Part shown: positions 41,557 through 45,483 of the stretch, in pieces
Position numbering within the stretch: the first letter of the stretch is position 1
How the letters are laid out: every line of letters begins with the position of its first letter
Assembly (NCBI RefSeq): GCF_016887565.1
Contig: NZ_CP069396.1
Coordinates: forward strand, 1,887,001-1,951,000
Length of the DNA: 64,000 nucleotides
Origin: Archangium violaceum
Lineage (GTDB): Bacteria; Myxococcota; Myxococcia; Myxococcales; Myxococcaceae
Direction of reading: 5' to 3'
Notes under the pieces: model-generated
Seen by the model: only the letters and a program-made list of their open reading frames with translations
Database searches by the model: none
What the model was told of the DNA's origin: nothing
Position numbers and translations under genes: made by a program

Positions 41557-42303
41557 TTAAGGGCGGCCGGGCTTCCCGTCCAACTTCCGGCGGCCGGACG
41601 GCGGGCCCGGGCGGGGCAGGCGCAGGCCATCCAACACGAGGGTGGTGAGCGCGTCGGGCAGCTCCAGCGGGTTGCCGACGTCCTCCTCCTCGCTGAGGAC
41701 GGCGAGCAGCAGGCGCTCCACCGCGCCCACCACCGCCAGCCCGCTGACGGCCGGGCGGATGGGGCGCAGCAGCCCGTGGGTGTGGGCCTTGCGGGTGATG
41801 TCGACCGCGTAACGGGAGATGAGGCGCGCCACCTCGACGAGCTTCACCCGGGCGCCCACCGCCGGTCCGCGGCACTCCTGGAGGTAGAGCCGCACCACGC
41901 CCGGGTGCTGGACGATGGCGCCCGCGATGATGGCGGCCACCGCGCGGTAGGCCTCGAACATGGCCTCCACGTCACGCGCGGCCTCCAGGGCCTCGCCGCA
42001 CGCCACCAGCCCCTGGAGCAGCTCGCGGCGCACCGGCTCCAGGAGCTGGTCGACCAGCGCCGCCTTGTCCTCGAAGTACCGGTAGAAGGTCCCCTTGGCC
42101 ACGCCGGCCGCCTGGGTGATGTCGTCGATGGTGACGCCGTCCAACCCGCGCTCCAGGAAGAGCTCGAGGGCCGCGTCGCTGAGCGCCTTCACCCGCTCGC
42201 GGCGGTTGGTCTCCCGGACGCCACCCTGGGGGCCGGGCCGCTGCGACGCGGGGGCAGGGGGGCTCTCCTCCTCCGGTCGCTCCGAGGGCTTTCGGGTGGC
42301 CAT
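41557..42303 (-). CDS. TetR-family regulator
   Basis: The 248-residue product has a Pro-rich 25-residue leader, a TetR helix-turn-helix (ITQAAGVAKGTFYRYFEDK, about 60-80) and a helical ligand domain. It is divergent from the hydroxylase-Lgt-radical SAM operon, and the 112 bp between them hold two copies of a TGACY-N4-GGTCA palindrome. That is a strong sign that it represses both directions, as TetR proteins usually do. The downstream lytic transglycosylase is likely in the same transcript. Confidence 0.92.
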   Translation of the reverse strand: MATRKPSERPEEESPPAPASQRPGPQGGVRETNRRERVKALSDAALELFLERGLDGVTIDDITQAAGVAKGTFYRYFEDKAALVDQLLEPVRRELLQGLVACGEALEAARDVEAMFEAYRAVAAIIAGAIVQHPGVVRLYLQECRGPAVGARVKLVEVARLISRYAVDITRKAHTHGLLRPIRPAVSGLAVVGAVERLLLAVLSEEEDVGNPLELPDALTTLVLDGLRLPRPGPPSGRRKLDGKPGRP

Positions 42304-42326: not shown

Positions 42327-42363
42327 TGACTGGATGGTCATTCTTCTGGTGACCAGGTGGTCA
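42327..42363. promoter_or_regulatory. probable TetR operator pair
   Basis: TGACTGGATGGTCA (42327-42340) and TGACCAGGTGGTCA (42350-42363) share the form TGAC-Y-N4-GGTCA. Their starts are 23 bp apart, placing two dimers about two helical turns apart. They lie between the divergent TetR and hydroxylase starts and just upstream of the hydroxylase ribosome site (GGAGG). Confidence 0.75.
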
Positions 42364-42415
42364 TCATTTCATACGGGAGCGCCAGGAAGCCGGGTGTTCC
42401 ACGAGGAGGTGCGAG

Positions 42416-42913
42416 ATGATTGGCATTCCATTGGGCCTGGCGTACTCCAACTTCGGGGAGTGGATGCTGCACCGGTACGTGCTGCATGGGCTGGGCAAGA
42501 AGCGCGGGAGCTTCTGGAGCTTCCACTGGTACGAGCACCACCAGCGCTCGCGCCGCCACGAGATGGTGGACGAGCAGTACAGGGGGCCGCTGTGGAAGTG
42601 GGCCCCGCAGAGCAAGGAGCTGCTGGGGCTGGCGGCCATCGTGCTGGGGCACCTGCCGCTGCTGAAGTGGGCGCCGGGATTCGTGGCCTCGGTGTGGGCC
42701 TCGACGGTGCTGTACTACTTCGTGCACCGGCGGGCGCACCTGGACCCGGACTGGGCGCGCGAGCACCTGCCGTGGCACTACGACCACCACATGGGGAAGG
42801 AGCAGAACGCGAACTGGTGCGTGACGTACCCGCTCTTCGACTACGTGATGGGCACGCGCAGGAAGTATCTGGGAGCACCCGCGATGGCCGAGGCCCGGGT
42901 TCCCGCCGCCTGA
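42416..42913 (+). CDS. fatty-acid-hydroxylase-superfamily di-iron membrane enzyme
   Basis: The 165-residue product has the histidine clusters of the sterol desaturase / fatty acid hydroxylase superfamily: HRYVLH (19-24), HWYEHH (37-42), HRRAH (about 104) and WHYDHH (about 122-127), with hydrophobic helices between. It is short, like bacterial carotenoid or sphingolipid hydroxylases. It would hydroxylate an acyl or isoprenoid chain with O2. AGGAGG precedes the ATG. It is the first gene of an operon with an Lgt paralogue (8 bp gap) and a Tes-like radical SAM gene, so a membrane-lipid substrate is likely. Confidence 0.85.
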   Translation: MIGIPLGLAYSNFGEWMLHRYVLHGLGKKRGSFWSFHWYEHHQRSRRHEMVDEQYRGPLWKWAPQSKELLGLAAIVLGHLPLLKWAPGFVASVWASTVLYYFVHRRAHLDPDWAREHLPWHYDHHMGKEQNANWCVTYPLFDYVMGTRRKYLGAPAMAEARVPAA

Positions 42914-42921
42914 GCTAGGCT

Positions 42922-43734
42922 GTGGGCCTGTCCGTGCCCATGACCTTTCCCGTCTTCCTTCCCCTTGGCCCCTGGCGGTTGCACCCCCACCTCGTCTTCG
43001 AGGCGCTGGCGTACTTCCTCGCGGCCCGGCTCTTCTTCTGGCTGAAGCGGCGGTGGGCGGACCCGCTGCAGCCCGCGACGCGGCTGGGCGTGGTGGCGGG
43101 GGCGGCGCTGGGGGCGGGCCTGGGCTCCCGTCTGGTGCACCTGCTGGACGAGCTGCCCCTGTGGTTCGCGGGCCAGGTGACGGGGATGCAGCTGCTCACG
43201 GGCAAGTCGTTGGTGGGCGGGCTGCTGGGAGGATTGCTGGGGGTCGAGCTCGCCAAGCGGATGTTGGGCGAGACGCGGAGCACGGGGGACCTCTTCGTGC
43301 TGCCGCTGTGCCTGGGCATCTTCCTGGGGCGCCTGGGCTGCTTCTTCACCGGGTTGGAGGACCACACCTATGGGGTGCCCACCTCGCTGCCCTGGGGGGT
43401 GGACTTCGGAGACGGCCTGAGCCGCCACCCCACCCAGCTCTACGAGGCCGCCTTCATGGTGGTGGTGGCGGCGATGAGCCTCTTCCTGCGCCAGCGTGAG
43501 GCGCGGGAGGGAGACCTCTTCCGCCGCTTCATGGTGCTGGACCTGGCCTTCCGGCTCGGGGTGGACTTCCTCAAGCCGGATCCTCGCCTCTGGCTGGGCA
43601 TGAGCGCCATCCAGTGGGCCTGCGTGGCGGGCCTGCTCTACTACGCGCGGGACTTCCCCCGGCTGTGGCTGCGGCGGGTCCACCCGAGCGCGGTGCTGGT
43701 GCTACTCGTTTGTGCCACGGGCGTGCTCCTGTAG
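42922..43734 (+). CDS. Lgt-family diacylglyceryl transferase paralogue
   Basis: The 270-residue protein has about seven membrane segments and the Lgt signatures GKSLVGGLLGGLLGVELAK, GRLGCFFTGLEDHTYGVPT and HPTQLYEA. The HGGL loop of canonical Lgt is GGL here without the His, so activity on prolipoproteins should not be assumed. Start is uncertain: GTG 42922 is used, with GTG 42934 and ATG 42940 as alternatives; none has a good ribosome site. The stop is 4 bp before the radical SAM gene. Position between a lipid hydroxylase and a Tes-like enzyme suggests a specialised lipid-transfer role. Confidence 0.85.
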   Translation: MGLSVPMTFPVFLPLGPWRLHPHLVFEALAYFLAARLFFWLKRRWADPLQPATRLGVVAGAALGAGLGSRLVHLLDELPLWFAGQVTGMQLLTGKSLVGGLLGGLLGVELAKRMLGETRSTGDLFVLPLCLGIFLGRLGCFFTGLEDHTYGVPTSLPWGVDFGDGLSRHPTQLYEAAFMVVVAAMSLFLRQREAREGDLFRRFMVLDLAFRLGVDFLKPDPRLWLGMSAIQWACVAGLLYYARDFPRLWLRRVHPSAVLVLLVCATGVLL

Positions 43735-43738
43735 GCTG

Positions 43739-45175
43739 ATGGGGCCGCCCATGAGCCATCGCGTCCGCCCCTACCTCTTCTACGATACGGCCATCTCCAT
43801 CTGCTCCACCTGCTACCAGCGCGTGGAGGGGAAGATCCTCTTCGCCGAGGGGAAGGTGCTGCTGCAGAAGCGCTGCCCGCGCCACGGCTTCGAGCGGGTG
43901 CTGCTGGCGGACGACGTGGACTACTACAAGCGCGCCCGGGAGATCTTCATCAAGCCTCCCGAGCAGCCCCAGCGCTACAACACGCCCATCCGCTGGGGGT
44001 GCCCGTACGACTGTGGCATCTGCCCGGACCACGAGCAGCACAGCTGCCTGACGCTGGTGGAGCTGACCGACCAGTGCAACCTGCGTTGCCCCATCTGCTA
44101 CGCCGCCAGCGGCCCGGAGCGGCTCACCCACCGGAGCTTCGAGCAGGTGGTGCGCATGCTGGACGCGGTGGTGGCCAACGAGGGCGAGCCGGACGTGGTG
44201 CAGCTCAGCGGCGGTGAGCCCACGCTGCACCCGGACTTCTTCCGCATCCTCGAGGAGGCCCGCCAGCGGCCCATCCGCCACCTGATGGTGAACACCAACG
44301 GCATCCGCATCGCCAAGGACGAGGCCTTCGCCGAGCGCCTGGCGTCCTACCGCAAGGGGCTGGAGGTGTACCTGCAGTTCGACTCCTTCGAGCGCGAGCC
44401 GCTGATGTCCCTGCGGGGGGCGGACCTGCGCTCCGTGCGGCAGCAGGCGCTCGAGCGCCTCAACGCGCTGGACGTGAGCACCACGCTGGTGGTGACGCTG
44501 AAGAAGGGGCTCAACGACGGGGAGGTGGGCCGCATCGTGGACTTCGCGGCCCAGCAGCCGTGCGTGCGCGGCGTCACCTTCCAACCCGTCCAGGAGGCGG
44601 GGCGGCTGGAAGGCTATGACCCGGCGAGGGACAGGCTGACGTTGACGGAGGTGCGGCGGCGCATCCTCGAGCAGACGTCCCTGTTCGCTCCGGAGGACCT
44701 CATCCCGGTGCCCTGCCACCCGGACAGCCTGTGCATGGGCTACGCCCTCAAACAGGAAGGCCAGGTGGTGCCGCTCACCCGGTACGTGCCACCGGAGCTG
44801 CTGGTGGAGGGGGCGCGCAACACCATCGTCTACGAGAAGGACACCCAGCTACAGCAGCGCCTCTTCCAGCTCTTCTCCACCAACCACTCCCCCCAGTCCT
44901 CCTCACGAAGCCTGTCGGACCTGCTGTGCTGCCTGCCCCAGGTGCAGGTCCCCGGGGGGCTGACCTACCGCAATGTCTTCAGGGTGCTCATCATGCAATT
45001 CATCGATGCCCAGGCCTTCGACCTGCGCAGTGTGAAGAAGAGCTGTGTGCATATCGCCCACCCGGATGGGCGCATCATCCCCTTCGACACCTACAACCTC
45101 TTCTACCGGGATGACCTGGAGCGCACGCGGCTGGCGCCCCTGCGCGAGGCCCTCGGCGCGGCGGGGTGGGTATGA
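43739..45175 (+). CDS. radical SAM enzyme of the Tes/Mss (membrane-spanning lipid synthase) type
   Basis: The 478-residue product has the arrangement of tetraether/membrane-spanning lipid synthases: an N-terminal CSTC…KRCPRHG zinc-like site (about residues 26-55), WGCPYDCGICPDHEQHSC for extra Fe-S ligation (about 85-105), then the radical SAM motif CNLRCPICYA and SGGEPTLHPD. Archaeal Tes joins two lipid tails by C-C bonds; bacterial relatives are linked to membrane-spanning (diabolic-type) lipids. Others of this family in myxobacteria are uncharacterised. ATG 43739 is used, ATG 43751 is possible. Its stop overlaps the next gene (ATGA). Confidence 0.8.
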   Translation: MGPPMSHRVRPYLFYDTAISICSTCYQRVEGKILFAEGKVLLQKRCPRHGFERVLLADDVDYYKRAREIFIKPPEQPQRYNTPIRWGCPYDCGICPDHEQHSCLTLVELTDQCNLRCPICYAASGPERLTHRSFEQVVRMLDAVVANEGEPDVVQLSGGEPTLHPDFFRILEEARQRPIRHLMVNTNGIRIAKDEAFAERLASYRKGLEVYLQFDSFEREPLMSLRGADLRSVRQQALERLNALDVSTTLVVTLKKGLNDGEVGRIVDFAAQQPCVRGVTFQPVQEAGRLEGYDPARDRLTLTEVRRRILEQTSLFAPEDLIPVPCHPDSLCMGYALKQEGQVVPLTRYVPPELLVEGARNTIVYEKDTQLQQRLFQLFSTNHSPQSSSRSLSDLLCCLPQVQVPGGLTYRNVFRVLIMQFIDAQAFDLRSVKKSCVHIAHPDGRIIPFDTYNLFYRDDLERTRLAPLREALGAAGWV

Positions 45176-45483
45176 GCCCGGCTCGGGACAACCCCAACGA
45201 GGTGCTGCTGTGGGCGTTTCTCGGCACGTTCTTCTGCTTCATGATGGGGCTGGTGAGCGCGGGCGTGGTGGTCGCGGTGGCTTCCGCCACCAGAATCGAC
45301 GTCCTGTTCTTGTTGGCGCCGATCACCTACTTCGGCGTGCCCATCATCGCGTACCTGCGGTCCAGGCAGGGGTTTTCACCCGACAGGTCGAAAGGCTTCG
45401 GCATCGGTCTGGCGTTGTTCGTGGGACTGACGCTGCTGCTTCCCGTGGTGATCTGCGGCGGCATGCTCGCCTTCGGCAAGTGA
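45172..45483 (+). CDS. small membrane protein, end of lipid operon
   Basis: The 103-residue product has three predicted transmembrane helices (about 12-36, 42-60, 77-101) and no known motif. Its ATG overlaps the stop of the radical SAM gene, so the two are translationally coupled. A hairpin follows. Function unknown; accessory role to the lipid enzymes is inferred from coupling only. Confidence 0.75.
   Translation: MSPARDNPNEVLLWAFLGTFFCFMMGLVSAGVVVAVASATRIDVLFLLAPITYFGVPIIAYLRSRQGFSPDRSKGFGIGLALFVGLTLLLPVVICGGMLAFGK

Follow-up and report, generated by a model that had tools for sequence, protein, structure and literature searches.

We identified, in a 64,000-nucleotide (nt) stretch of Archangium violaceum DNA (the window throughout; positions 1,887,001-1,951,000 of the 13.2-Mb genome), a gene cassette whose conserved core is a paralogue of the lipoprotein enzyme Lgt, a radical S-adenosylmethionine (rSAM) enzyme of the Tes superfamily and, usually, a mini-protein with three transmembrane (TM) segments. 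The mini-proteins diverge quickly and sometimes stand in tandem, with one cysteine kept at the end of TM3, an observation that is new here. The gene set spans several phyla, and judged from the genomics it probably makes or attaches a modified lipid of an undescribed type. We tentatively hypothesize that the rSAM enzyme alters an acyl chain, after which the Lgt paralogue would load the diacylglyceryl group onto the mini-protein cysteine, a reading that we consider possible rather than probable. The core lies in the window as follows:

42940..43734, + strand: Lgt paralogue, core gene 1 (PF01790, 84.6 bits, cut-off 24.9; alternative GTG start at 42922)
43751..45175, + strand: Tes-superfamily rSAM enzyme, core gene 2 (PF04055 and the HMPTM zinc ribbon PF23545)
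45172..45483, + strand: three-TM mini-protein, usual core gene 3 (103 amino acids, three hydrophobic segments)
45454..45456, + strand: codon TGC for Cys95, the conserved mini-protein cysteine

Only 16 nt separate the Lgt and rSAM genes, and the ATGA at 45172-45175 joins the rSAM stop to the overlapping ATG of the mini-protein, which matched no family in an NCBIfam scan and in Pfam met DUF3861 alone, far under its cut-off (13.7 vs 27 bits). An earlier reading made from the letters and open reading frames (ORFs) of this DNA (the sequence-only reading) had described a TetR regulator, a lipid hydroxylase, an Lgt-type protein, a radical SAM protein and a coupled small membrane protein, and Pfam and ORF evidence recovers all five. 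It had also set the Lgt paralogue apart from any other lgt; two further LGT genes are indeed present in the genome, so the cassette gene is not the sole lgt. Two further Tes-like rSAM genes are found at 6.82 and 6.84 Mb, about 12 kb apart (L186, G000:C1:6820000-6839500); a Rieske oxygenase, a short-chain dehydrogenase/reductase and a ketosynthase lie between or next to the two, and the whole resembles a further lipid or polyketide-like cluster.

Distribution of the conserved core

We scanned a collection of genome contigs with the rSAM enzyme as query and used the best 80 of 123 relatives (56-68% identity). These 80 loci were retrieved through six short peptide patterns, with a bias towards close relatives and Mucilaginibacter; their gene calls are mechanical, and each locus counts once, with no correction for relatedness. 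Their record titles name Bacteroidota, Acidobacteriota, Bacillota, Planctomycetota, Gemmatimonadota, Myxococcota and Pseudomonadota, among others. The core is found far beyond Myxococcota, the phylum across which the sequence-only reading had suggested checking its conservation. An Lgt paralogue lies near the rSAM gene in 59 of the 80 loci: upstream in 51, downstream on the same strand in seven and downstream on the opposite strand in one, the last being a partial match of 40.6 bits at a contig end. The distance between the two genes is at most 150 nt in 54 of the 59 and below 800 nt in all of them; in L017-L019 they are divergent. As the mini-protein we counted a short ORF that follows the rSAM gene immediately and has two or more hydrophobic segments, among loci with at least 330 nt past that gene; this ORF is present in 44 of 48 loci with Lgt upstream and in none of 20 without Lgt. 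Moreover, rSAM and Lgt distances are correlated (Mantel r 0.90, p 0.001, 46 loci). Among 34 genomes checked for copy number, all 27 with a cassette Lgt carry at least one additional LGT gene; the seven that lack a cassette Lgt hold one LGT gene in six cases and two in the other.

Within a sample of 193 Myxococcota genomes, with scoring confined to the top 8 candidates of each genome for rSAM and the top 14 for Lgt, the Lgt profile is matched at E<=1e-30 in 11. Nine of these exceed 200 bits, and they are the eight genomes with an rSAM cassette plus G150; in the remaining pair, G106 and G042, the score is near 109 bits. The rSAM enzyme of G150 exists only as a C-terminal fragment on another contig, an apparent case of cassette decay. 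The same genome retains the Lgt paralogue (L210, about 5.0-5.6 kb) and a Cys-bearing TM mini-protein (L211, about 6.0-7.0 kb). The distribution is patchy: at E<=1e-100 the rSAM enzyme occurs in two of the six genus members and in 8 of 96 genomes across the family. Between two sister genomes that both carry the cassette, identity is 99% for rSAM, 95% for Lgt and 62% for the mini-protein. Recent transfer of rSAM between them is not favoured: the proteins are 99.4% identical but third codon positions only 91.8%, next to 86.6-90.2% for five neighbouring genes.

Methyltransferase and/or DUF547 genes lie beside rSAM in 18 Lgt-free loci (L045, L047-L051, L054, L056, L058, L060-L064, L070, L074, L085 and L102), with partner identity taken from one scanned representative each (DVU_1556-like and DUF547). 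A common lipoprotein partner was considered for the Lgt-free clade and dropped, as only 3 of 11 DUF547 N-termini show a lipobox pattern. Regarding L052 and L053, a record titled Bacillus subtilis DE0224 has a doubtful species label because its cassette region is near-identical to that of Lederbergia sp. NSJ-179.

The radical SAM enzyme and the Lgt paralogue

By sequence, the closest solved relative of the rSAM enzyme is GDGT-MAS (Tes; MJ0619; structures 7TOL/7TOM) at E=5.9e-71. The AlphaFold2 (AF2) model of the window rSAM enzyme, with a predicted local distance difference test score (pLDDT) of 85.4, matches 7TOM at Z 45.1 over 401 residues (root-mean-square deviation, rmsd, 2.3 A), followed by SuiB and MoaA at Z 19.5; membership of the Tes superfamily, as the sequence-only reading had it, is borne out by sequence and fold. 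In an alignment of 77 rows (76 loci plus the window; residue numbers omit the initiator Met), every row carries the rubredoxin ligands C17-C20-C41-H44 (CX2CX20CX2H), the N-cluster ligands C83-C87-C90-H93 (CX3CX2CX2H), the radical SAM (RS) cluster ligands C108-C112-C115 (CX3CX2C) and counterparts of GDGT-MAS Tyr195, Asp199, Arg210, Gln268 and Arg275, residues whose roles are described in the available part of PMC9433317. The enzyme thus resembles GDGT-MAS in its whole fold, in the rubredoxin motif, N-cluster and RS cluster, and in most adenosine-site residues.

The resemblance ends at the C-terminal cluster, so the Tes-like cysteine layout noticed earlier holds at three of four metal sites. The position of Tes Cys455 is Ser/Thr in 76 of 77 rows and Ala in one, and that of Cys470 is Asp/Glu in all 77; both cysteines are putative C-terminal cluster ligands in GDGT-MAS. 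Among the paralogues in a separate comparison of 28 rows, Cys is present in all 27 rows covering the Cys455 column and in 26 of the 27 covering the Cys470 column (exception L033). In addition, Tyr459 is replaced by Ile/Val/Met in all 77 rows and Met439 is kept in 57; the available part of PMC9433317 gives both as conserved across 1000 archaeal GDGT-MAS homologues and describes a substrate carbon bonded via sulfur to the C-terminal cluster. C321 and C431 are retained in every row, and an altered C-terminal cluster using these two and the acidic residue is possible. Unlike GDGT-MAS, the cassette enzyme also has an Lgt partner.

With the NCBIfam Tes model NF045702 the window enzyme scores 274.6 bits (cut-off 450), and with NF045646, the model of the radical SAM (seleno)protein TrsS, 314.1 bits (cut-off 490). 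Seven cassette relatives reach 246-294 bits on the Tes model, and these and three other paralogues all lie under both cut-offs. In a tree of 111 sequences (L058 left out; some deeper nodes weak), 82 sequences, the cassette enzymes, group in a single clade (support 0.95), apart from archaeal Tes and from a bacterial Tes above the cut-off; 19 of the 21 Lgt-free loci form one nested clade (support 0.99), and L075 falls among Myxococcota. Because the rSAM enzyme has its own clade, scores under the Tes and TrsS cut-offs and has two C-cluster cysteines replaced, we do not file it as Tes, where the sequence-only reading had called it Tes/Mss-like.

The Lgt paralogue of the window scores 37.5 bits on the lgt equivalog TIGR00544, again under the cut-off (118.9). 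Its AF2 model (pLDDT 92.6) matches E. coli Lgt (5AZB) at Z 13.1 over 239 residues (rmsd 5.4; next row Z 6.2), a value near the chance level reachable by helical bundles; the sequence profile, though, matches Lgt alone (E=1e-15). We compared 48 cassette proteins with 32 other LGT proteins from the same genomes. Shared with the E. coli enzyme are equivalents of Gly145 and Gly154 and, in 48 of 48 cassette proteins each, of Arg143, Glu202 and Arg239, which shape the phosphatidylglycerol pocket according to the available parts of PMC4728403 and PMC8689077. Unlike E. coli Lgt, the cassette proteins have neither His nor Tyr at position 103, mostly His for Tyr26, Gly27 in only 2 of 48 and, in TM3, an invariant Glu103 and Lys106 (window numbering); among the 32 other LGT proteins, none has Glu at the first of these columns and one has Lys at the second. 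The position of Tyr235 is Asp in the window protein and Tyr in 46 of 48. A change of Asn146 to Cys has little meaning because 20 of the 32 other LGT proteins share it.

The sequence-only reading had stressed that the window protein lacks the HGGL histidine. The residue is indeed Val, at a position that is Tyr in 16, His in 12 and something else in four of the 32 other LGT proteins; with Tyr so common there, the absence is not diagnostic, and we rejected it as proof that Lgt activity is lost. In myxobacteria and some other bacteria, LGT proteins (L001, L133, L134, L151) carry YGGL and GRLGC/GRIGC in place of HGGL and GRLGN, so that the textbook Lgt signature fails in them. The third LGT-family gene of this genome (L002, G000:C1:12649752-12650462), with FGGL and ARLGCF, is another paralogue.

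The mini-protein and candidate pathways

We aligned 49 mini-proteins (45 loci, the window and three relatives), without using the cysteine as a selection criterion. Three hydrophobic segments are present in 47 and two in the other two; the sequences are strongly divergent, yet one cysteine, Cys95 in the window and near the C-terminal end of TM3, is retained in 48 of 49. The largest mini-protein cluster, mostly of Bacteroidota, keeps it in 50 of 51 members, and 12 of 36 loci there hold at least two copies. Neither this cysteine nor the tandem copies had been noticed in the sequence-only reading. In five loci with no ORF behind rSAM (L042, L057, L069, L095, L211), Cys-bearing TM ORFs are located elsewhere. 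By the positive-inside rule, the positively charged flank of a membrane segment lies on its cytosolic side. Of 48 mini-proteins, 44 carry a net positive charge in the stretch ahead of TM3 and four are neutral there, and the cysteine would therefore sit at the periplasmic end of TM3, the side where Lgt works. A median of 18 residues separates it from the last charge, followed by a median tail of 8 residues, a placement like that of the end of the hydrophobic stretch in a signal peptide.

The genomic evidence covers the conserved cassette, the folds, the residue patterns and the co-occurrence, and from it we infer a substrate, an order of steps, an acceptor, a membrane topology and a product. 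Specifically, a cytosolic rSAM enzyme of Tes fold would bind a glycerophospholipid, probably phosphatidylglycerol, and generate a radical on its acyl chain. Because the two C-terminal cluster cysteines are gone, this step would proceed without the published Tes sulfur-carbon relay, and the product would be something other than an ordinary membrane-spanning dimer; the Tes-type cross-linked lipid suggested by the sequence-only reading is weakened by the same loss. The Lgt paralogue would then take the altered lipid into its retained donor pocket and transfer the diacylglyceryl group to the near-invariant TM3 cysteine of the fast-diverging, sometimes tandem mini-protein. The broader claim, that this is a second, non-lipoprotein system of cysteine lipidation in which a dedicated Lgt paralogue places an rSAM-altered diacylglyceryl group on a TM cysteine, is one that we regard as doubtful.

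Several points weigh against loading onto the mini-protein. The rSAM enzyme works in the cytosol, whereas the Lgt active site faces the periplasm. Residue 103 of Lgt, the presumed activator of the acceptor thiol, is Val in 31, Leu in 10, Ile in four, Thr in two and Met in one of the 48 cassette proteins, so that thiol transfer would need another base, and Tyr26, which E. coli Lgt requires, is His in 36 of 48. The motif around the mini-protein cysteine (GFSTC in 16 of 49, GFSxC in 25 of 49) is no classical lipobox. The mini-protein is missing in 4 of the 48 loci with Lgt upstream, none of the seven loci with Lgt downstream has one immediately after rSAM, and a wider look found no Cys-bearing TM ORF in L055, L065, L066, L068, L086, L103, L115, L117 or L212-L214. 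One Lgt-free rSAM clade instead adjoins DUF547 and/or methyltransferase partners. Within the rSAM enzyme, Ser271 and Thr273 of the GDGT-MAS adenosine site are mostly replaced (by Gln in 70 and Ala in 59 of 77 rows), and the loop 370-401 is not confidently modelled (pLDDT <50).

Nearly as likely as loading onto the mini-protein, and likewise tentative, is a pathway confined to lipids, in which the Lgt paralogue would serve as a lipid-presenting scaffold or would hand diacylglycerol or glycerol phosphate over to a small molecule. In this case the mini-protein would be an anchor or scaffold with a structural cysteine, and the product a modified free glycerolipid. Such a pathway suits an Lgt protein that has kept its donor pocket, lost its acceptor-activating residue and gained a Glu/Lys pair in TM3, as well as cassettes with no detected mini-protein and the FA_hydroxylase genes near several myxobacterial cassettes, but it leaves unexplained a near-invariant cysteine in fast-diverging and partly duplicated mini-proteins.

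That cysteine, the sole near-invariant residue of small, fast-diverging ORFs that stand beside an rSAM gene and reach at least two copies in a third of the loci of one cluster, would fit a maturation resembling that of ribosomally synthesized and post-translationally modified peptides, with rSAM modifying the mini-protein at or near the cysteine and the Lgt paralogue adding a lipid. A Cys-Cys pair (392-393) in the rSAM loop points the same way, being present in 62 of 62 Lgt-linked enzymes and in none of 19 without Lgt, with L075 as the exception (Cys-Cys and no visible Lgt). However, the Lgt-free loci nest in one clade, so that the joint loss of Lgt and the pair is statistically one event; in Pfam the radical SAM domain is not accompanied by any peptide-maturase domain, and the fold match to GDGT-MAS (Z 45.1) stands far above that to SuiB (19.5), itself a peptide maturase. 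We consider this explanation unlikely.

A genuine tetraether or membrane-spanning lipid synthase, with Tes or Mss activity, is disfavoured. The bacterial membrane-spanning lipid synthase Mss was reportedly described by Sahonero-Canavesi in 2022. Its architecture is shared with Tes according to the available part of PMC13274423, and the cassette enzyme is compared with it through that published description of architecture. In favour of a Tes or Mss activity are the fold of GDGT-MAS and the three metal sites, out of four, that are kept. Against it stand scores well under the cut-offs (275 of 450 bits for Tes, 314 of 490 for TrsS), the replacement of Cys455, Cys470 and Tyr459 while the paralogues keep both Cys columns, and an acidobacterial genome (G193) that holds a separate Tes above the cut-off (496 bits) besides its cassette enzyme.

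A TrsS-type system unconnected with membrane lipids, to which an Lgt-fold protein was recruited for another purpose, is improbable: TrsS is the best NCBIfam model for the rSAM enzyme and its single full-length match, and the representative methyltransferase of the Lgt-free clade comes near the DVU_1556 family (152.8 bits, cut-off 155), but the score is under the TrsS cut-off, the enzyme lacks the Cys at 430 and 445 present in three paralogues that score best with TrsS (L022, L026, L035; all TrsS-like rows aligned lie under the cut-off), and the majority partner is a membrane Lgt-fold protein with a conserved lipid pocket, by the tree probably the older partner.

The resident TetR-hydroxylase module and wider implications

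Upstream of the core, the window carries the following features:

41557..42303, - strand: TetR-family regulator (PF00440, 61.6 bits)
42327..42340, + strand: TetR operator-like palindrome 1, TGACTggatGGTCA (TGACyN4GGTCA; predicted operator)
42350..42363, + strand: TetR operator-like palindrome 2, TGACCaggtGGTCA (TGACyN4GGTCA; predicted operator)
42416..42913, + strand: FA_hydroxylase-superfamily enzyme (PF04116, 37.4 bits, cut-off 31)

The hydroxylase gene ends 26 nt before the Lgt ATG, or 8 nt before the alternative GTG, and the sequence-only reading had treated all of these genes as one TetR-controlled operon. Its Lgt-rSAM part is conserved as a unit; the TetR-hydroxylase part is not conserved with it. 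We rejected TetR and this hydroxylase as cassette members, since the window-type hydroxylase occurs in 60 of 96 family genomes (E<=1e-40), next to 8 of 96 for rSAM, and the cassette-free sister genome G177 retains TetR, two operators and the hydroxylase. The 19-nt pattern TGAC-N5-GGTCAT-N2-TT has only two copies in the 13.2-Mb genome, both of them the palindromes listed here, and similar pairs precede the hydroxylase gene in the cassette-free genomes G177 and G161. TetR, its two operators and the hydroxylase form a module resident in the genus, and the hydroxylase stands directly ahead of the cassette in two of its genomes. Given this position directly behind the module, the cassette is in this genome probably co-transcribed with the hydroxylase and may be read from the promoter of the module.

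FA_hydroxylase-superfamily genes, of a subfamily other than the window's, also lie near the myxobacterial cassettes L095, L103, L115, L117, L212 and L214, and about 1 kb from L213; because of this recurrence, a lineage-specific hydroxylase link is kept in play, and a lipid link of these genes with the cassette in Myxococcota is plausible. Outside Myxococcota, such a gene lies about 1.9 kb away in L056, and L092 and L097 show motif-only matches.

In the literature searched, with subscription papers mostly outside its coverage, we found no paper linking an Lgt paralogue with a Tes-like rSAM enzyme. Previous surveys, as far as the available parts of PMC8941075 and PMC11868695 show, list bacterial Tes homologues among the possible producers of branched glycerol dialkyl glycerol tetraethers, and a bacterial clade that has lost the two C-terminal cysteines and is tied to an Lgt paralogue could be misread in such counts. 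The presence of the cassette in culturable Mucilaginibacter makes it tractable for asking how far the scope of the Tes fold reaches and whether Lgt chemistry extends beyond lipoproteins. More generally, if the proposed loading of the mini-protein cysteine is true, these bacteria would have lipid-anchored membrane mini-proteins unlike any known lipoprotein.

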